Of a stretch of 64,000 bases of DNA, positions 9,858 to 62,885 are shown one piece after another (the first letter of the stretch is position 1; each line of letters starts with the position of its first letter). The notes under the pieces are model-generated. The model did not search any database, was not told the origin of the DNA, and was given only the letters and a program-made list of their open reading frames with translations. The DNA lies in the NCBI RefSeq assembly GCF_900095305.1, contig NZ_FMDO01000044.1, forward strand, positions 124,001-188,000. The letters are read 5' to 3'. The translations under genes were made by a program, and so were the position numbers. This DNA comes from Proteiniborus sp. DW1. Lineage in GTDB: Bacteria; Bacillota; Clostridia; Tissierellales; Proteiniboraceae.

Positions 9858-11717
9858 TTATCCCTTGAGTATCTTTGCATTCTGCTCTTCTATAAATTGA
9901 TTTGTGTACAGTCTATAGTAATATCCTTTTTTCTCTAATAGTTTATGGTGATTTCCTTCTTCTATTATCTTACCGTCTTTTATTACAAGGATTCTATCTG
10001 CTGTACGTATTGTAGAAAGTCTGTGTGCTATGATGAAACTAGTTCTTCCTTTTAATACCTTGTGTATAGCATCTTGGATTTTTTGTTCTGCTTCTGTATC
10101 AATTGAGGAAGTAGCCTCATCTAGTACAAATATTCTAGGATCAGCAAGTACTGCTCTAGCAAATGAAATAAGCTGTTTTTCACCTGTAGATAGCTTACCT
10201 CCTCCTTCTCCTACCTCTGTATCATAGCCCTTTTCTAGCTTTTTGATGAACTCGTGAGCATTTACTAGCTTTGCTGCTCTTATTATATCTAGCTCGCTAG
10301 CATCTAACTTTCCATATCTAATATTATCCTTAATGGTTCCGCTAAATAAGTGAGGTCCCTGAAGTACATATCCCAAATTAGAGTGTAACCAAAGTAATGG
10401 CATCTTTTTGTAATCAATACCATCTATTAGTATTTGACCACTTGTAGGCTCATAAAACCTGCAAGCAAGATTTACTATGGTACTTTTTCCTGAACCTGTT
10501 TCTCCAACTAAGGCGATTGTCTCTCCTGCTTTAATATGAAGATTAAAATTCTCAAGAACCTTTTCGCCTGTATTATAGGCAAATGTAACATCCTTAAAAG
10601 TTATATCTCCCTTAATCTCTGGCCAAGCTTCTTTATTTGAATTAAATGAGTCCCCATACTCTTTTATTACATCTTCACTATCTTCTATTTCAAGCTTAGT
10701 ATCTATCATAGACATAACCCTTTCTGCAGAAGCCTGAGCTGATTGTAACTCTGCAAAGACACGAGCCACCTCTCTAACAGGTTCAAAGAAGTGAACTGTA
10801 TATGATATGAATGCTACTAAGGTACCATAGCTAATAGCATCTGAAAACACACTCTCTCCTCCATACCAAATTGCTAAACCAGTTCCTATAGATGAGAGTA
10901 CCAATACTACTGGCTGGAATAATGAAGAAAATACTGTTGCTCTTATGGAATTAGCCTTCATGCTTGTTGTTAATTCAACAAACTCATTTAGATTTTCTTC
11001 TTCTCTAACTAGTGTTTTTGTAGTTCTAGCACCCATTATTCCTTCGTTAAAAGCACCAGTAATACGTGAATTTATCTTTCTAGTTTGCCTATGTGCTTTC
11101 AATATTTTTTGTTGAAAATACATACTTACTACTGCTAATATAGGCATCACTAATAGCACTAGTAATGCTAGCTTCCAATTTAGAAATAACATTACAATAG
11201 TCGTTGTAATCATTAAAACAAATCCCCAAACCATATCAACAATGCCCCATGCAATAGTATCTCCTAGTCTCTGAATATCTGACGTCATACGGGCCATTAT
11301 CCACCCTACAGGAGTAGTATCGAAATATGAGAATGATAACTCTTGTAAGTGTTTAAAACCCTTTCTTCTAATAATATAAACAAGCCCTGTCTCCACTTTT
11401 CCTGCTATAGCTATGAAGAAACCTATTGTAAATACTTGGATTACAATTAAAAGAAAATACACTATCCCAAAAACTACAATTCCATCAATATAGATACTAT
11501 TAAAGATTGTAATTCCCTTTAAATTTTTTTCTACTACATAGTTATCAACTATAAATCTTGTCATCAGTGGAAAAATTGCATCTATAACTGCTAGACTTAC
11601 CATTAAAAAACATAGTATTATTAATTGCTTTTTTAGTGGCTTTGCATAAGAAAAAATCTTTTTCCACAATTTTAAGTCAAATTTACTATTATAATCTTGT
11701 TCTTGAAAAGAACTCAT
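9858..11717 (-). CDS. bmrD: ABC exporter half-transporter, consensus-site subunit (BmrD-like)
   Basis: 619 residues: six-helix exporter membrane domain (about 1-330) then a nucleotide-binding domain with Walker A GETGSGKST (around 406), signature LSTGEKQ and Walker B VLDEATSSID with the catalytic Glu intact. Its partner (11754-13562) lacks the catalytic Glu, the known asymmetry of heterodimeric exporters such as BmrCD and TM287/288, where the consensus subunit is the BmrD/TM288 type. Gap to the partner is 36 bases. The likely function is efflux of hydrophobic drugs or lipids; induction by the leader upstream suggests ribosome-targeting drugs. Confidence 0.9.
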   Translation of the reverse strand: MSSFQEQDYNSKFDLKLWKKIFSYAKPLKKQLIILCFLMVSLAVIDAIFPLMTRFIVDNYVVEKNLKGITIFNSIYIDGIVVFGIVYFLLIVIQVFTIGFFIAIAGKVETGLVYIIRRKGFKHLQELSFSYFDTTPVGWIMARMTSDIQRLGDTIAWGIVDMVWGFVLMITTTIVMLFLNWKLALLVLLVMPILAVVSMYFQQKILKAHRQTRKINSRITGAFNEGIMGARTTKTLVREEENLNEFVELTTSMKANSIRATVFSSLFQPVVLVLSSIGTGLAIWYGGESVFSDAISYGTLVAFISYTVHFFEPVREVARVFAELQSAQASAERVMSMIDTKLEIEDSEDVIKEYGDSFNSNKEAWPEIKGDITFKDVTFAYNTGEKVLENFNLHIKAGETIALVGETGSGKSTIVNLACRFYEPTSGQILIDGIDYKKMPLLWLHSNLGYVLQGPHLFSGTIKDNIRYGKLDASELDIIRAAKLVNAHEFIKKLEKGYDTEVGEGGGKLSTGEKQLISFARAVLADPRIFVLDEATSSIDTEAEQKIQDAIHKVLKGRTSFIIAHRLSTIRTADRILVIKDGKIIEEGNHHKLLEKKGYYYRLYTNQFIEEQNAKILKG

Positions 11718-11753
11718 TTATTACACCACCTTTTTCGTCGAAAACCTATAGGT

Positions 11754-13562
11754 CTAAACTGTTTTAGTCTCTATTAATAGCTCTTCCTCTAAGGCATTTT
11801 GAATTTCCCAAATACGCCTATATAGCCCCTGCTGTCCTATTAGTTCTTCATGAGTACCAGACTGTACTAGTTCTCCACCATCTAATACAAGTATAATATC
11901 TGCCTCTGATAATGTTGAAATCCTGTGAGATATTATAAATGTTGTAGTCTTTTCCTTCCTCGTCTTTAGAGCCTTTCTTATATTTGCATCAGTTTCAGTA
12001 TCTACTGCACTAAGAGAATCATCAAACACTAAAACTGGATAGTCATTTATTATAGTTCTAGCTATGGCAACTCTTTGTTTTTGTCCTCCTGAAAGAGTAA
12101 CTCCACGCTCCCCTACTAATGTGTCGTAGCCTTTTTCAAAGTCTAATATTACATCATGGATAGAAGCTATTTTTGCTGCTTCATAAACCTCAGAATCAGA
12201 TGCCTCTTTCCTTGCAATTTTTATATTATCCTTAATATTCTTTGAATATAGAAAAGGCTCTTGTAGGATTATACCTACATTTTTTCTAATCCACTTCTTA
12301 TCTATCTCCTTAAGCTCTATGCCATCAATCTTAATAGAACCACTCTGATAATCATAGAGTCTACCTAAAAGATGAATTAAAGTAGATTTACCAGAGCCTG
12401 TAGGACCTAGTATAGCTACTGTTTGCCCTTGTTTAACTTTAAATGATACATTCTTTAAAATAGGTCTTTCCTTTTCATATTCAAAACAAACATCCTTAAA
12501 CTCTATATTTCCCTTTACTTCAGGCTTTAGCTGATTTTTATCTGTTACCTCTAAAGGTTCATCTAATATTTCCCCTACTCTCTTCAAGGAAACTATCATC
12601 TTCCCGAAATCTGCTAGAATTCTACCCATTTGCCTTATTGGCCACAGTAGCATTCCCTCATAGGTTGTAAATACTACTAATGTACCTAGAGATATTTCTC
12701 CCATAGCTGCCCAATATGCTCCAAATACCAATACTGCTCCAATCTGTAATAGACATGCTAAATCTGATAAAGCCCAGTACCATGCAAGTAGTTTAATCAG
12801 TCTGTAAGTCAAACCTCTAAATTCAACATTCTTTTCATCAAACTTATCTATTTCATATTGCTGACGAGCAAAAGCTCTAACTACTCTTATTCCAGTAAGA
12901 TTTTCTTGAAGTACATTTGAGAGTCTACCTTCAGCCTCATCTGACTTTTGAAATGCATCTCTCATTTTTATAAAGAAAACTATAGCAGCTACAAAAATTA
13001 CTGGAACTACTAACATTGCGATTAAAGTAAGCTTAACGCTTAAAGAAAGTAATATACTTAATACAAATGTAATCATGAATACTGCATATCCTATTTCAAC
13101 AAATTGAACTGCAAGAAATCTTCTTATAGTTTCAATATCTGAAGTACATCTTTGTATTAAATCTCCCGTTTCAGCCTTTACATGGTATTCATAAGATAAA
13201 TGCTGTAAGTGGTCATATACTTTCTCTCTAAGATTTTTAGCTATAGACTCAGATGCCACTGCTGACCATTTACCTCTTAAGTAAGTAAATAATCCTCTTC
13301 CTATAGTTAGAATTATAAGTGCTAAGCTGCATATCCAAAGATTTTGAGCTAATGTGTTTTTACCACCTAATGAATCGATTATACTTAGTACCCAATTAGG
13401 TACATCCATTGGTTTATCTCCTATTACTGAGTCAATAGTAAAACTAATAACTAAAGGCCCTGCCAATGTAAATGCTGTAGCCAGTGCTACACTCAGTATT
13501 GCACCAACATATAACAATCTGTTCCCCTTCATTGATTTCATTAATAATTTAATACTGTCCAT
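11754..13562 (-). CDS. bmrC: ABC exporter half-transporter, degenerate-site subunit (BmrC-like)
   Basis: 602 residues with six membrane helices and an NBD: Walker A GPTGSGKST, canonical signature LSGGQKQR, but Walker B reads VLVFDDSLSAVD, so Asp replaces the catalytic Glu. That is the hallmark of the non-hydrolysing NBD in heterodimeric type IV exporters. It pairs with 9858-11717. It is the first large gene behind a roughly 590-base leader holding a leader peptide, two terminators and a second small ORF, so expression is probably controlled by attenuation, as is known for Bacillus bmrCD. Confidence 0.92.
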   Translation of the reverse strand: MDSIKLLMKSMKGNRLLYVGAILSVALATAFTLAGPLVISFTIDSVIGDKPMDVPNWVLSIIDSLGGKNTLAQNLWICSLALIILTIGRGLFTYLRGKWSAVASESIAKNLREKVYDHLQHLSYEYHVKAETGDLIQRCTSDIETIRRFLAVQFVEIGYAVFMITFVLSILLSLSVKLTLIAMLVVPVIFVAAIVFFIKMRDAFQKSDEAEGRLSNVLQENLTGIRVVRAFARQQYEIDKFDEKNVEFRGLTYRLIKLLAWYWALSDLACLLQIGAVLVFGAYWAAMGEISLGTLVVFTTYEGMLLWPIRQMGRILADFGKMIVSLKRVGEILDEPLEVTDKNQLKPEVKGNIEFKDVCFEYEKERPILKNVSFKVKQGQTVAILGPTGSGKSTLIHLLGRLYDYQSGSIKIDGIELKEIDKKWIRKNVGIILQEPFLYSKNIKDNIKIARKEASDSEVYEAAKIASIHDVILDFEKGYDTLVGERGVTLSGGQKQRVAIARTIINDYPVLVFDDSLSAVDTETDANIRKALKTRKEKTTTFIISHRISTLSEADIILVLDGGELVQSGTHEELIGQQGLYRRIWEIQNALEEELLIETKTV

Positions 13563-17763: not shown

Positions 17764-18000
17764 AAAAATAAAAAAACCTTTCAACTCATATAGAGACGAA
17801 AGGTTCGCGGTACCACTCTAATTGATAGTAAAATGCTTACTATCCACTCAATAATTTTAACGGATTTATCCGACTAGAGCTAATATACTTCACTCTAATA
17901 GCTCGGAGACGAGTTCGGTTACTATTGCTATCGTTTTTCACCAGCCAACGACTCTCTAAAAGCAACTTCATAGCCTACTACTTCTCTTCAACGCAAATAT
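17764..18000 (-). promoter_or_regulatory. T-box leader of leuS
   Basis: The minus strand shows the T-box signature: AGAGTGGTACCGCG (with the tRNA-acceptor-pairing TGGT, 17820-17806) followed by a terminator stem AACCTTTC/GAAAGGTT (17805-17775) and a T tract. Upstream the Stem I elements are present, including GTTGGCTGGTGAAAA and GAACTCGTCTCCGAGC, where CTC codons (Leu) can serve as specifier. Uncharged tRNA-Leu would favour the antiterminator and switch on leuS. The T-box lies more than 400 bases from the gene because repeat copy A intervenes. Confidence 0.92.
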
Positions 18001-48272: not shown

Positions 48273-48623
48273 TTATTGATTAATTAATGCCTTACTCAGT
48301 CCGTCTTTAATAGCATCAATAAGCCCAATACTTGTATATGATGCTCCTGCAACCACTTCTACATCAGGTTTATTAGATTTAATTACCCTATTAGGAATAT
48401 CTTTGTAAACAATCTCTGCAAACTCCGGCATTTCATATTCTTCAATAACCTGGATACTCAATATATTATATTCATCAGTTATTATTTTAACCTTTATTGG
48501 ACCATGATGTCCTTCTCCAACTCCTATATATTCTCCTGGAACATATAGGTTTTGTTTTGATGTACATGCTTCTAGCCCAAAAGCTAACACAACAATTAAT
48601 AAAATCAATAAAGTTCTTTTCAT
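48273..48623 (-). CDS. FMN-binding domain lipoprotein
   Basis: 116 residues. A lipoprotein signal (LLILLIVVLAFGLEAC, Cys20) precedes one FMN-binding domain (about 28-112) with GEYIGVGEGHHGPIKVKI and the flavinylation region VAGASYTSIGL (Ser95 in place of the usual Thr as FMN acceptor). ApbE enzymes attach FMN to such domains; an apbE gene lies at 52059-53189. PplA-like flavinylated lipoproteins pass electrons outside the cell; this one has a single domain where Listeria PplA has two. It heads the kinase/regulator operon. Confidence 0.85.
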   Translation of the reverse strand: MKRTLLILLIVVLAFGLEACTSKQNLYVPGEYIGVGEGHHGPIKVKIITDEYNILSIQVIEEYEMPEFAEIVYKDIPNRVIKSNKPDVEVVAGASYTSIGLIDAIKDGLSKALINQ

Positions 48624-48732
48624 AGAATCTTCCCCTTTATAATTAGAGGTTAAAAATATTAAAAAAATTTTGGTCTTATTGTAAATTTCATTATAATAAT
48701 TATAACATCTATGGGCTTTTTTGTCACATAAA

Positions 48733-48771
48733 AAAGACCTATAATATGTATGGACACATATTATGGTCTTT
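48733..48771 (-). terminator. Terminator after the polyprenyl synthase gene
   Basis: AAAGACC-ATAATATGT (48733-48749, one base between blocks) pairs with ACATATTAT-GGTCTTT (48756-48771), followed by a T run on the minus strand. Confidence 0.85.
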
Positions 48772-48779
48772 AAAGTTTC

Positions 48780-49751
48780 TTAATATTCCCTATTTAACAA
48801 CTTTGACACAGAAGCTTTAATTATTCTTTTGGCCTCACAATCTGGCAGCTTTTCAATTCTATTAATTGCTTTTTCAGTATATCTATCTGCAACTGCTTTC
48901 GCTTTATTTATACCATCGTATTTATTTACTAGTAATAATATTTCATCTATTTCAAGTTCTGTTAGGCATTGGCTATCCAGCAGCTTTTTAAGCTTACCAT
49001 CCTTGTCATTTTGTAAGGCATAAATTAAAGGTAGAGTATAGTAACCTTTTTGTAAATCTCTTAAAGCAGATTTTCCTAACTTTTTTGTATTACCATTAAA
49101 ATCAAGTATATCATCAATAATTTGAAAGGCCATTCCTGCATTATATCCTATTTTGCCTAGAGAGTTTGTTATTGATTCATGACAATTTGCCTCATGTGCT
49201 CCCACATAGAAGCTTATTGCAAAAAGAGCTGCAGTTTTTCCAGATATTATTCGTATATAGTTTCTTAAACTTGCATTTTTCCCATATCTAAGATTATATT
49301 GAGTTATTTCTCCCATACATATCTTAGTCAATGCTTTTGAAATATCCCTTAGATTCTCCATGTGATAATCATATTTAGCTAACATGTTAAAACATTGGCA
49401 GAAAAGAAAGTCTCCAACATATACTGCATAATCCTTTCCATGCTTGAACTGTACAGTATCACAACCTCTTCTAATCTCTGCATCATCTATTATATCATCA
49501 TGAATTAATGTAGCCATGTGAAGCATCTCAATCACTGCTGCTATATTATGAATTTTGTCTAAATCACATTCACCAAACCTGCTGGCCAGAATAAGAAAAG
49601 CTGGTCTAAGCATCTTACCACCATTTTCAAGCATTGGCGATATAGATTCTTCTAAAATGCTCTCTCTGGACTTGATATTCTGTTTTATGATACTCTTAAC
49701 TTCATTTAATTCTTCAATAAATGCAGGATAATCGTTCCAAAATTTAATCAT
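48780..49751 (-). CDS. Polyprenyl diphosphate synthase (HepT-type long-chain)
   Basis: 323 residues from ATG 49751, chosen because AAAGGTGAG precedes it and no ribosome site precedes the upstream ATG at 49772. Both Asp-rich motifs are present: HDDIIDDAEIRRG and FQIIDDILDF. The family makes the C30-C50 isoprenoid tail of menaquinones; the small-subunit gene is not in view. In Listeria-type extracellular electron transfer loci a homologue (DmkB) supplies a demethylmenaquinone side chain; its place beside NDH-2, an FMN lipoprotein and ApbE fits that role. Confidence 0.88.
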   Translation of the reverse strand: MIKFWNDYPAFIEELNEVKSIIKQNIKSRESILEESISPMLENGGKMLRPAFLILASRFGECDLDKIHNIAAVIEMLHMATLIHDDIIDDAEIRRGCDTVQFKHGKDYAVYVGDFLFCQCFNMLAKYDYHMENLRDISKALTKICMGEITQYNLRYGKNASLRNYIRIISGKTAALFAISFYVGAHEANCHESITNSLGKIGYNAGMAFQIIDDILDFNGNTKKLGKSALRDLQKGYYTLPLIYALQNDKDGKLKKLLDSQCLTELEIDEILLLVNKYDGINKAKAVADRYTEKAINRIEKLPDCEAKRIIKASVSKLLNREY

Positions 49752-49812
49752 CTTCTCACCTTTGCCTATCATTTAAAATTATTGTTAGTTATATGATTCT
49801 ACATAATAATGA

Positions 49813-49846
49813 AATGTCCTTCTAAAGAATTCTTTAAAAGGACATT
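49813..49846 (-). terminator. Hairpin after the NDH-2 gene
   Basis: AATGTCCTT (49813-49821) and AAGGACATT (49838-49846) pair perfectly around AAAGAATTCTTT. The tail on the minus strand (TTCATTATT) is only partly T-rich. Confidence 0.6.
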
Positions 49847-49858
49847 AGATTTTATCAT

Positions 49859-51724
49859 CTAATCAATATACAGGTATGTTTTCTTTGCAAATCCTGTATT
49901 CTTCCACCATTTTTTCAGAACAGGTAATACATAGTAATCAAGCCCTAATGTACTTCCAGAGCCGCCAATTAACGCAATACCTGCTGCGAAATACCATAGC
50001 ATTTCTGTTGGTGCCATTCCAGAAGACCATATCATAAGTCCCATTACAACAGATATTATAGAAGCCAAAGCTGTAAATAATCCTGCAATTAATAATAATC
50101 CTACTATTATTTCACCTATTACCATACCTGCTTGGAAAATTTCAGCTAATTTTGTGTATCCTCCATCAGATGTATAGAAAAATATATCCATTGTCCAGCT
50201 TACGATATTGGATATGAATTCAGGTACTGGCAATGCTTCCCCCCATTGAGATGCTACTTCAGCTGCACCAGAAGCTGCCGCTGTTGCTGAAGCTGCCGCT
50301 GTTGCTGCTGCATTGCCTGCTGTTGGTGGTGCAGGTATTAAGAATATTTTTGAAGGATCTTCAAGAATGCTTGGCAATTTATCTAAACCTTGCATTAACC
50401 ACTTAAATCCAACGAATAATCTTAATGGGAATAACCAAAAATTTGGAGAACGTTTAGCTAAATGTCCACCTATAAAGCTTCTATTATCTTTCACATGGAA
50501 GAATTCATACATTATATATGACCAGCACTTATTAAAACCTGCTACTTGGAAGAAGTATAATAGGTTTATGAAGTGTTTTGAAAGCATAGCAAAGAAGCTT
50601 GGTAATCCAAAGAACTTACCTGGTAAACCTACATGAGCCATACCATATTTTCCACCAATACAAACCATAGCTCCATGGAATTTTGGCTTATATGATTTCT
50701 TTTCTCCACCTTTTATATCTGAATAAATATTGTGCGCAACTAGTGGTGCTGAATGCTCTGCATTTTCAACCATTTGTGGAACTGGCCTTTCTTCACCTTC
50801 AGGTATATAGAATATATTGTCTCCAACTACGTAAACATTATCATAATCCACTGATTGAAGCTTATCATTAGTGACAATTCTCTTTCTGCCTTTTTGCTCA
50901 ATGTCTAAATTATCTAATAAGTCTGCTCCTTCAACTCCTGCTGCCCAAATTACTGTCTCAGCCTCTATGCTACCTTTATCTCCCATTGTAACAGAACCTG
51001 GTTTAACTTCTGTAATTCCTGCTCCTGTAATTATTTCAACGCCTAGTTTTCTAAGTCTATTTTCCGCTCTCTTTATTAACTTATCTGGGAATATTGGAAG
51101 GATTTTTGGCAGGGCATCTACTACATAAAGTTTTACTTCATCTTTGTCTACATAGAAGTCTTTGCAAAGTCTATCTTTCCACTCTGCAAGCTCTCCTATC
51201 ATTTCAACTCCAGTAAAGCCTCCGCCCACTACTACAAATGTAAGCATCTTTCTTCTTTTTTCTGCATTAGGTTCTTTTACTGCTTCCCTAAACATATGAA
51301 GGATATGTTCTTTTAGACCAACAGCATCTTCATAGGACCAAAGCTTTTTAGTGTATTCCTCTGCTCCAGGTATACCAAAGTACGTTGGTTTACAACCAGT
51401 ACCTAATACAAGGTAGTCGTATTTGTAGGTATTGTTCTCTGACTTTAAAGTATTAGCTTTAAAATCAATGTCTGTAATTTCGTCAAGTACGAAATCTACT
51501 TTTCTCTTAGCAAATACCTTTTTGAATTCGATTCTAATAGAATCTTCAGGCACTCTATCTGCTGCAACCTCATGTAGCTCTGTTAACATTGTATGATATG
51601 GCTTTTTATCAATCAATGTAACCTCCACGCTGTCATCTTTTTTAAACAATTTTCCTAGTTTTTTTGCAGCTAATATACCACCATAGCCGCCCCCTAGTAC
51701 TATTATTTGTTTAGTATTAGCCAT
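49859..51724 (-). CDS. ndh2: Type II NADH dehydrogenase fused to a DoxX-like membrane domain
   Basis: 621 residues from ATG 51724 (GGGAGG six to seven bases upstream; the upstream ATG lacks a site). Residues 1-400 are NDH-2: FAD motif GGGYGGILAAK near the N terminus, NAD motif VVGGGFTGVEM (about 164-174), and WAAGVEGADLL/DNVYVVGDN for FAD closure. A stretch near 450 begins a membrane part with HLAKRSPNFWLFPLRLFVGFKWL, an Ala/Thr-rich low-complexity linker (about 485-510), and four DoxX-like helices to the end. The enzyme would pass electrons from NADH to quinone; the fusion anchors it. Adjacent genes suggest an extracellular electron transfer role. Confidence 0.93.
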   Translation of the reverse strand: MANTKQIIVLGGGYGGILAAKKLGKLFKKDDSVEVTLIDKKPYHTMLTELHEVAADRVPEDSIRIEFKKVFAKRKVDFVLDEITDIDFKANTLKSENNTYKYDYLVLGTGCKPTYFGIPGAEEYTKKLWSYEDAVGLKEHILHMFREAVKEPNAEKRRKMLTFVVVGGGFTGVEMIGELAEWKDRLCKDFYVDKDEVKLYVVDALPKILPIFPDKLIKRAENRLRKLGVEIITGAGITEVKPGSVTMGDKGSIEAETVIWAAGVEGADLLDNLDIEQKGRKRIVTNDKLQSVDYDNVYVVGDNIFYIPEGEERPVPQMVENAEHSAPLVAHNIYSDIKGGEKKSYKPKFHGAMVCIGGKYGMAHVGLPGKFFGLPSFFAMLSKHFINLLYFFQVAGFNKCWSYIMYEFFHVKDNRSFIGGHLAKRSPNFWLFPLRLFVGFKWLMQGLDKLPSILEDPSKIFLIPAPPTAGNAAATAAASATAAASGAAEVASQWGEALPVPEFISNIVSWTMDIFFYTSDGGYTKLAEIFQAGMVIGEIIVGLLLIAGLFTALASIISVVMGLMIWSSGMAPTEMLWYFAAGIALIGGSGSTLGLDYYVLPVLKKWWKNTGFAKKTYLYID

Positions 51725-51983
51725 TACTTGACCTCCCTTTATTTTGCATTCAAATGAGCTAATCATCTCATGAACTTAGTCTTAATTGAAAATAATAGTA
51801 AATAAAATAGACCCACTATAAGTTTGATAATCTACTAACTATCCTAGTTAAAATATTATCATAACCCTAACAAATGTCTATATTTACAAAGTTTTTGGTC
51901 ATTACCTATACAATTTGTTTATTTTGTTCATGAATTAATCACTGCTTTTTATGAAAGAATAATAGGTTAGTATTTTTCTTTAC

Positions 51984-52012
51984 TTTAAAGATATTTTCAA
52001 TAATGCTATAAT
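51984..52012 (+). promoter_or_regulatory. Promoter of apbE
   Basis: TTTAAA (51984-51989), 17-base spacer, TATAAT (52007-52012), 46 bases before the start codon. The divergent NDH-2 promoter must lie in 51767-51960, but no clear pair stands out. Confidence 0.55.
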
Positions 52013-52058
52013 GTTTTTTGATAGCATATAACTTGAATCATAAAGAAAGAGGGAAAGT

Positions 52059-53189
52059 ATGAAAAAAAACAGAAAAATGACTATTATTAAAAATGAAGAA
52101 GAGTCTAACATAGAATACAAAGGGAATGGAAAAACTAAAAAGTTTATTGTTTATATATTGTCCATTATTGTAATAGCTATTGGTATGTATTCAATTATCA
52201 GTAAATATAAAGGGGCAAATCTATCTAAAGACAGTTTAATTAAAGAAAAAACAGGTTTTCTATTAGGAACAGTGGTACAAATAAAATTTCCTGAATCACA
52301 ACCTGTAAGGCTATTTGATGATGTCTTCGTTCTTTTAAAGGAAATAGAAAATGATATGAGCATAAATATTGAAGATAGCGAAGTAATTAGAATCAATAAA
52401 AGTGCTGGTAAATCCTATGTAAAAGTATCTCCAGAGACCTATTATGTAATTGAAAGAGGAAAATATTATTCTGAGCTTTCAGAAGGGAGATTTGATATTA
52501 GCATAGGTCCTTTAGTAAAACTATGGGGAATAGGAACCAATGCCCCTAAGGTTCCAACACAAGTTGAAATAGAAAAAGAATTAAGTAAAGTTGATTATAC
52601 TAATATATTGCTTAATGAATCTGACAAGAGCATTATGCTAGCAAAGGAAGGCATGATCATAGACTTAGGCGGAATTGCAAAAGGATATGCTGCCGACGTA
52701 GTTGCAGATTATCTAAAGTCTAAAGATATCCATAATGCAATCATCGACTTAGGTGGCAATATACTGGCTTTAGGTGGAAATGGCAAGGCTGACTTTTGGA
52801 ATATTGGTTTGCAAAACCCATTTGAGGCAAGAAATAAACACTTAGGTATTCTTAAAGTTAAAGATAAGACCATAGTCACATCTGGAGTATATGAAAGGAA
52901 TTTTACTGAAAAGGGCAAAACATATCATCATATTCTAGACCCCTTCACAGGCTATCCAGTAGAAAACTCCTTAATGAGTGTCAGCATAATTGCTGATAAG
53001 TCTATAGATGCTGACGGATTGTCTACTACAGTATTTGCACTGGGACTTGAAAAAGGAGCAGAAATAATTAAAAGTCTTGACGGAGTTGATGCTATTTTTG
53101 TAGATAAAGCTAAGAATGTGTACATTACTGAAGACATTAAGAATTCTCTGACTATTACAAATGATGAATTCACTGTAAAGGATATCTAA
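52059..53189 (+). CDS. apbE: FAD:protein FMN transferase (ApbE)
   Basis: 376 residues with a 30-residue cytoplasmic N-terminus and one membrane anchor (about 31-50), not a lipoprotein box, then the ApbE domain facing outside: SEGRFDISIGPLVKLWGIG (about 140-158), IDLGGIAKGYAAD (about 203-215), NAIIDLGGNILALGG (about 226-240) and YHHILDPFTGYPVEN (about 288-302). It cuts FAD and links FMN to Thr/Ser of FMN-binding domains. The FMN lipoprotein at 48273-48623 is a likely substrate; the two are separated by the polyprenyl synthase and NDH-2 genes. Confidence 0.95.
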   Translation: MKKNRKMTIIKNEEESNIEYKGNGKTKKFIVYILSIIVIAIGMYSIISKYKGANLSKDSLIKEKTGFLLGTVVQIKFPESQPVRLFDDVFVLLKEIENDMSINIEDSEVIRINKSAGKSYVKVSPETYYVIERGKYYSELSEGRFDISIGPLVKLWGIGTNAPKVPTQVEIEKELSKVDYTNILLNESDKSIMLAKEGMIIDLGGIAKGYAADVVADYLKSKDIHNAIIDLGGNILALGGNGKADFWNIGLQNPFEARNKHLGILKVKDKTIVTSGVYERNFTEKGKTYHHILDPFTGYPVENSLMSVSIIADKSIDADGLSTTVFALGLEKGAEIIKSLDGVDAIFVDKAKNVYITEDIKNSLTITNDEFTVKDI

Positions 53190-55564: not shown

Positions 55565-55599
55565 AAAAAGATGACAGAATAAATCGTATCCTGTCATCA
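55565..55599 (-). terminator. Terminator after the HesB-like gene
   Basis: Minus strand GATGACAG pairs with CTGTCATC (13-base loop), followed by TTTTT. It ends the short transcript of the HesB-like gene. Confidence 0.85.
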
Positions 55600-55606
55600 A
55601 AGCAAG

Positions 55607-55876
55607 TTAAAAATGAGTAGTTATGACATAATCATCTCCCCATTCATAACTTTCATAGTCAATGTCTATAGTTGGAGCATAACTCTCTATCTTCTTATTT
55701 ATTATTACTTTTACTGAACCAATATTATATACATTGTCATCATCTTTTGGCTCATCCAGAGCCAAGTCAAATATTACCCCTGATCAGCTTCTTCTATAGG
55801 GAAAAATCCTTACTGTTTTTCCACTGAACTCTTGTTCTAACCGTTCTTTTGCTTTGTTGGATATGCCAAACTCCAT
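55607..55876 (-). CDS. HesB/IscA-like protein, probable selenoprotein (in-frame TGA)
   Basis: ATG 55876 with AGAGGTGA site; 89 residues to TAA at 55607 if TGA at 55786-55784 is read as selenocysteine (position 31). Before it: MEFGISNKAKERLEQEF then TVRIF; after it: SG-IFDLALDEPKDDDNV and KVIINK...IDY, ending WGDDYVITT. In HesB/IscA proteins this is where the Cys of a C-SG-x-F-x-LALDEP type motif lies, and HesB-like selenoproteins with Sec-Ser-Gly at that place are known in anaerobes. A 7-bp hairpin 18 bases past TGA matches a bacterial SECIS. The alternative is a nonsense mutation. The stretch just before TGA (PYRRS) is less typical of the family. Confidence 0.75.
55747..55765 (-). promoter_or_regulatory. 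SECIS-like hairpin downstream of the in-frame TGA
   Basis: Minus strand TTGGCTC, loop TGGAT, GAGCCAA: a perfect 7-bp stem whose loop contains GG. The stem begins 18 bases after the TGA, within the window used by bacterial SECIS elements recognised by SelB. Confidence 0.75.
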
Positions 55877-56038
55877 ATTAATCACCTCTTTATAATTATT
55901 CCCCTTGGCTTAGATGAATAAACAAGTATTAAGACAGCAATTTTCTTTAAAAAAAATGATAATTTTTTGAAACAAAACCTGATGATAATTGTTTAGTATA
56001 TGAGTAAGTACATAAATAATATAATGGAGGTAATAATC

Positions 56039-62012: not shown

Positions 62013-62885
62013 GGGACGGTTCTTTTTGCATTAATCAAGTTTTTTTGCTATGCCATGAATAGTCCCTCGACTTACATGTAATAATTCAGCAATTCTTCTG
62101 TGTGATAAATAACTATTCTTAAGAAGTTGTTTAACCGTATCTTCTAAAATATTTTTGTCATTAGTTAATGCCTTAATATCTCTTATATCATATTTCTTTA
62201 AAAATTTATCAATAATTTTTTGAGCTCTTTCTTCACGTTCTTGTTCTAAATCTTCACTAATTTCTAAAAATTCTTCTATTTCTTCTTCTAAATGAAAACT
62301 CTTGAAATACTCTATTGAGTATGAGAATAGACCTAGTATAAATTCTCGTTCTCTAGGACATACTAATTTATTTTTGCCTTCTATATATTCTTTGTAACTA
62401 CTCCAATAATAATCATCTGTATTAATTGCTATCTTAGCTTTTACTGGATTATTATGTATATATCTCATAGCTCTTATTAGATACCCTTCTGAATCTATAA
62501 CTTCACTTTTAAATCTATCTTGAAAAACATGCCCTACTCTTTCGTACTTAGAATTATAAAGTCCTGCAAATTTAATATTTATCCTTTTAAATGCATCAGT
62601 CATCTTCGGTAATTCTGAGTGTATTAACAAATGTACATGGTTATTCATTAAACAGTATGCAACAATTGAAATATTCTTTTTTTCTACTTGTTCCTGCAGT
62701 TGTTCAATAAAATACTTTTTTTCCGCAACTTTCGCAAATATCATTTCTTTATTATTCCCTCTCATCATTACATGATAATATCCTGTTGGGCTTTCTTTTC
62801 TTGCAACTCTTACCATATTATCACCTCAATAAAATATTATCATATTTTGGGAATTGTGCAATATAAATGCAAAAAGAACCGTCCC
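62013..62885 (-). mobile_element. RAYT element with 18-bp inverted repeats
   Basis: GGGACGGTTCTTTTTGCA at 62013-62030 and its exact reverse complement at 62868-62885 bracket the tyrosine transposase gene. Both sides continue with GGATGCA-type sequences. The left repeat abuts the stop codon. The GGGACG core is shared with the five-unit array at 20393-20488. Confidence 0.85.
62031..62816 (-). CDS. REP-associated tyrosine transposase (RAYT, Y1/IS200-like)
   Basis: 261 residues with the HUH metal motif in NNHVHLLIH (His60, His62) and the catalytic Tyr119 in RYIHNNPV, preceded by FQDRFKSE. The C-terminal 80 residues include a helix-turn-helix (YLSHRRIAELLHVSRGTIHGIAKKL). RAYTs cut single-stranded REP hairpins. 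Unlike full IS200 elements the enzyme usually acts on short repeats elsewhere in the genome. The gene is flanked by perfect 18-bp inverted repeats and looks intact, so it may still act. Confidence 0.9.
   Translation of the reverse strand: MVRVARKESPTGYYHVMMRGNNKEMIFAKVAEKKYFIEQLQEQVEKKNISIVAYCLMNNHVHLLIHSELPKMTDAFKRINIKFAGLYNSKYERVGHVFQDRFKSEVIDSEGYLIRAMRYIHNNPVKAKIAINTDDYYWSSYKEYIEGKNKLVCPREREFILGLFSYSIEYFKSFHLEEEIEEFLEISEDLEQEREERAQKIIDKFLKKYDIRDIKALTNDKNILEDTVKQLLKNSYLSHRRIAELLHVSRGTIHGIAKKLD

Follow-up and report, generated by a model that had tools for sequence, protein, structure and literature searches.

A TGA-interrupted hesB-like gene of Proteiniborus sp. DW1 as a probable selenoprotein gene in a divergent IscA-fold branch

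Within the 64,000-nucleotide stretch of DNA analyzed here (the window), a minus-strand frame from ATG 55876 to TAA 55607 poses the question of whether its in-frame TGA is a lesion, a stop codon read through in some general way, or a codon for selenocysteine (Sec). Direct reading and translation both bore out the original prediction that this TGA, at codon 31 (55786–55784), is the only stop inside the frame. Read-through yields the product MEFGISNKAKERLEQEFSGKTVRIFPYRRSUSGVIFDLALDEPKDDDNVYNIGSVKVIINKKIESYAPTIDIDYESYEWGDDYVITTHF. Our analysis indicates that this is very probably a Sec-decoded gene of the HesB/IscA fold, with the following features.

55607..55876, minus strand: probable hesB-like selenoprotein gene, 89 amino acids, Sec31 (from the frame, relatives, and predicted fold)
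55784..55786, minus strand: in-frame UGA, codon 31, putatively decoded as selenocysteine (from TGA in 8/8 branch members and the Sec machinery)
55883..55889, minus strand: Shine-Dalgarno-like AGAGGTG, with the ATG 6 nt further on (direct reading)
55747..55765, minus strand: SECIS-like hairpin, 7-bp stem, loop UGGAU (from folding and the bSECIS rules)
55570..55598, minus strand: intrinsic terminator directly 3' of the hesB-like gene, 12-bp stem and T tail

Because AGAGGTG precedes the frame and an intrinsic terminator ends it (one found against 0.1 expected), the gene appears to form a complete transcription unit by itself. Comparable AGGTG or AGGAG motifs stand 5' of the ATG in relatives. In the window, the gene lies between a downstream copper amine oxidase N-domain/glucosaminidase protein and a divergent upstream S-layer-homology protein. 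A window-wide scan of TGA read-through frames free of overlap with long ORFs ranked 55876–55607 first as the longest, and the 58-codon open stretch 3' of the TGA has a chance probability of ∼0.004 from base composition alone.

The window holds several other items of interest. A T-box leader (17789–18000, minus strand; 154 bits) was the only element returned by an Rfam scan of the window. An ORF at 62031–62816 resembles a REP-associated (Y1) transposase. Positions 48273–53189 encode an FMN-binding lipoprotein, a polyprenyl synthase, and an NDH-2-like oxidoreductase with a membrane C terminus, with ApbE on the opposite strand, a set resembling flavin-based extracellular electron transfer.

The gene could be a pseudogene, that is, a hesB-like gene that acquired a nonsense codon at position 31 and is decaying. 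The window alone is compatible with such a recent mutation, and a naive caller does stop at codon 31; as predicted, the standard-code ORF list of the window omits the gene. Comparison with relatives argues against decay. Both same-genus genomes, G002 (80% identity) and G001 (73%), carry the gene with the TGA at the same codon. Across three pairs, substitutions 3' of the TGA were distributed over the codon positions as 7/4/15, 8/3/32, and 11/5/28; the second of these compares the window gene with G001 and has a third-position bias of p = 4e-8. Since substitutions concentrate at third codon positions, the frame beyond the TGA is, by this measure, under purifying selection at the protein level. 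We regard the TGA shared by the congeners, together with the third-position substitutions downstream of it, as decisive sequence evidence for a real gene.

A branch profile extended this pattern. Four genomes in one other family of the order (G042, G017, G051, and G030) contain members scoring 124–144 bits, all four with the TGA at the same codon, and the next homologues fall to ∼50 bits. An eighth TGA-containing member is present in Acetoanaerobium noterae, in a record with only 4 listed features, so that the lack of an annotation there carries no weight either way. The TGA thus occupies the codon-31 position in 8/8 branch members from at least two families. It had been expected that a mistaken assignment would show itself in close homologues with neither Cys nor TGA at this codon; the seven other members all have the TGA. 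No Cys form of this exact branch was found, the five distant relatives all having TGA, so the Sec/Cys swap is visible only against the wider IscA family, whose members have Cys in the Sec31 column. With the same TGA in eight genomes, selection on the frame 3' of it, and a full Sec machinery in the genome (below), we consider a pseudogene extremely improbable.

Branch members appear to be narrowly distributed, with a U-x-G motif that lacks a following P. Neither a phylum-wide sample of 398 genomes nor a class-wide sample of 391 genomes contained further members at branch-level scores. A contig search with the single window protein as query found nothing; with the branch alignment as query, it matched only an Andreesenia angusta MAG, whose contig appears to be the same as that of G030. 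Viral contigs yielded no branch member.

The original prediction would have failed had the genome lacked a Sec machinery, and all four genes were found: the source genome (G000, 99% complete) contains selA (562 bits), a selC-encoded tRNA-Sec (72.7 bits against the Rfam gathering cut-off of 47), and a selD-selA-selB operon, giving a complete Sec-decoding trait. The six G-numbered relatives (G001, G002, G042, G017, G051, and G030) all have selA. At least three further TGA-containing selenoprotein genes are present in the source genome. Its selD itself carries an in-frame TGA (SGUAAK), grdA carries one TGA, and a second, canonical hesB-like gene (G000:C3:115443) has its TGA within GVGUGGPSFG and scores 66.9 with TIGR01911, above the cut-off of 66.35. 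At L040 (complement, ∼10930–11970), the selD start lies upstream of the standard ORF, across an in-frame TGA (SGUAAK), and a standard caller would therefore shorten selD.

The residue inserted at a UGA is not given by sequence alone, and this codon might instead undergo generic read-through or encode Trp (code 4). Against this stand the tRNA-Sec, selA, and selB of the genome, the long genes of the window, which as standard-code ORFs do not cross TGA codons, and the alignment of the site with the Cys of IscA and AQ_1857 rather than with a Trp. Decoding other than as Sec is therefore very unlikely, and we infer actual Sec insertion at UGA31.

A perfect 7-bp hairpin with GG in the loop had been predicted 18 bases after the TGA. 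This hairpin is real: 55765–55759 pairs with 55753–55747 around the loop UGGAU, starting 18 nt past the TGA. The bSECIS model, as quoted in PMC13188914, asks for a loop of 3–9 nt, a stem of 4–16 bp, a G at the first or second base of the loop, a distance of 16–37 nt after the UGA, and a minimum free energy of −7.5 kcal/mol or lower. The window hairpin lies within all of these limits, with a 5-nt loop, a 7-bp stem, G at the second loop position, a loop beginning 25 nt past the UGA, and an energy of about −11 kcal/mol. Dinucleotide shuffles of the 47-nt stretch made the hairpin look unremarkable (z = −1.5, 15/200). Because the protein is conserved, synonymous recoding is the better test, and recodings rarely equaled the hairpin (z = −4.1, p = 0.003). 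Over a wider set, the mean z was −2.2 in 54 Sec rows versus −1.0 in 18 Cys rows, one of the latter (L031) being really a Sec gene with its UGA one codon on. In G001, G017, G051, and G030 the hairpin is weak and, taken alone, falls short of the −7.5 kcal/mol rule. The folding results thus argue strongly for a SECIS in the window gene, whereas for the branch as a whole they are mixed.

In the mechanism that we propose, SelB bound to the hairpin at 55765–55747 would bring Sec-tRNA-Sec to UGA31, and translation would then run on to TAA 55607, giving an 89-residue selenoprotein of HesB/IscA fold. The predicted SelB-mediated insertion at UGA31 is the well-supported part of this scheme.

Against known families, the product scored below all three curated cut-offs: 45.6 against 85 for NF038090 (E = 6.6e-12), 24.8 against 66.35 for TIGR01911, and 21.9 against the Pfam cut-off of 26.3 for PF01521 (E = 2e-4). 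Five other branch members tested likewise fell under the TIGR01911 and NF038090 cut-offs. HesB-like selenoproteins are tabulated with a UxGP motif (PMC13188914); the window protein reads USGV, and in branch relatives the residue after UxG is V, I, or N. In a tree of 72 homologues, the seven branch members then available formed one clade (support 97/97) apart from the UGGP selenoproteins and the Cys forms; many forks of the tree lacked resolution because the protein is short.

A PDB search with the branch profile matched E. coli IscA and AQ_1857; in both, the first conserved Cys aligned on Sec31, in keeping with the prediction that the TGA sits at the Cys/Sec position of the family. AlphaFold2, run on a two-sequence alignment of the read-through product with L046, gave a model with a pLDDT of 79, and Foldseek matched it to HI1723, AQ_1857, SufA, IscA, and DsrR (probability 1.00; TM-score 0.56–0.67 by query length). 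The read-through product is thus predicted to have an IscA/SufA fold, whereas a 30-residue termination product would contain only its first strand, helix, and second strand. The frame, its conservation, the Sec machinery, the SECIS-like hairpin, and the family (by profile and predicted fold) are all read from sequence, and every checked detail of the original observation proved correct.

Sec is the sole Cys/Sec residue of the window protein, whose C terminus (WGDDYVITTHF) lacks the CxC Fe-S ligands; seven of the eight branch members have no Cys besides Sec, and the G017 protein has one elsewhere. The original assignment as a HesB/IscA-like selenoprotein therefore stood as to an IscA-type selenoprotein and not as to a standard member of TIGR01911 or NF038090.

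Other unusual seleno-HesB genes were seen along the way. L022 (G067) carries three in tandem (∼669, 1058, and 1362), one TGA each, with diverged U-site motifs (UADV, UGGR, and UGGP). Tandem pairs of another divergent type (SUCG, GUAG, and GUNR), also without C-terminal Cys, lie in L023 (G094, 1195–1790) and L028 (G098, 1431–2060). L031 (G054, a 77% complete genome; ∼1305) encodes a HesB-like protein in which a C-U pair (SCUGERAFG) accompanies a lipoprotein-type signal peptide, possibly an exported seleno-HesB.

What might such a protein do? Each chain of an A-type carrier binds iron or a cluster through three cysteines. In the window protein, Sec would stand where IscA has its first conserved Cys, and the single selenolate would serve as a metal or redox ligand, helping to handle iron or taking part in thiol/selenol chemistry; it would not belong to a three-Cys Fe-S site of the classical type. 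We favor this role because the branch keeps only the first of the three carrier cysteines, as Sec, and we offer it tentatively. A selenoprotein acting as a classical Fe-S carrier, with other ligands from a partner or dimer, would suit the IscA fold, the shared first ligand position, and the same-strand ferritin gene that two relatives have immediately upstream. The lack of a C-terminal CxC or any other Cys in the window protein speaks against it, as does the canonical seleno-paralogue of the same genome, which keeps its C-terminal Cys, and we judge such a carrier unlikely. On residue content, the one-selenolate function is more likely than the classical carrier.

The upstream ferritin hints weakly at a part in iron handling. 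A functional reading from neighbors was weakened: apbE is the adjacent gene in G017 and G051, and in G000 and G002 a single gene intervenes, but the orientation is convergent, so that the two form no operon, and G042 has a LysR gene in its place.

Listings of HesB-like selenoproteins as a prokaryotic family go back at least to 2005–2006 (PMC1088965, PMC1794560). According to PMC11097638, mutagenesis and 75Se labeling revealed such a protein in Methanococcus maripaludis; a mutant disrupted in its gene still fixed nitrogen, and the function of the protein was not clear. Because the window gene falls short of the curated cut-offs and lacks the UxGP motif, we file it as a probable divergent branch of this known kind, neither a new class nor a member of TIGR01911. 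The novelty seems to be the branch, distinct from the GUGGP type that the same genome also carries; a small search of open-access papers found no description of it. The selenoprotein family that it would extend is among the less understood, and the added branch, apparently overlooked so far, slips under profile cut-offs tuned to UGGP proteins. The branch may be a separate and functionally distinct one in which a single exposed selenolate, with no other thiol in the protein, does the chemistry, such as soft-metal or iron transfer; if so, current family models would miss it, its scores lying below their cut-offs. The source genome encodes two Sec HesB-like proteins, and none of its proteins exceeds the PF01521 cut-off, which makes it a convenient one in which to study the function of such HesB-like proteins.

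Compared with known systems, the window protein shares the predicted fold and first Cys/Sec position with the IscA/SufA/ErpA A-type Fe-S carriers (PF01521) and differs from them in lacking their C-terminal CxC ligands and in scoring under the Pfam cut-off. DsrR (PDB entry 2k4z) has an IscA-type fold, with a weak profile match and a Foldseek match, but only 19% identity to the window protein; it too is not known to have the Fe-S cysteines. Likeness to the HesB-like selenoproteins (TIGR01911 HesB_rel_seleno; NF038090 IscA_HesB_Se) lies in the small IscA/HesB fold, Sec at the first conserved Cys, and a GG-loop hairpin that is likewise positioned over the LALDE codons; the window protein departs from them in USGV versus UGGP, the missing C-terminal Cys, its separate clade, and its sub-cut-off scores.
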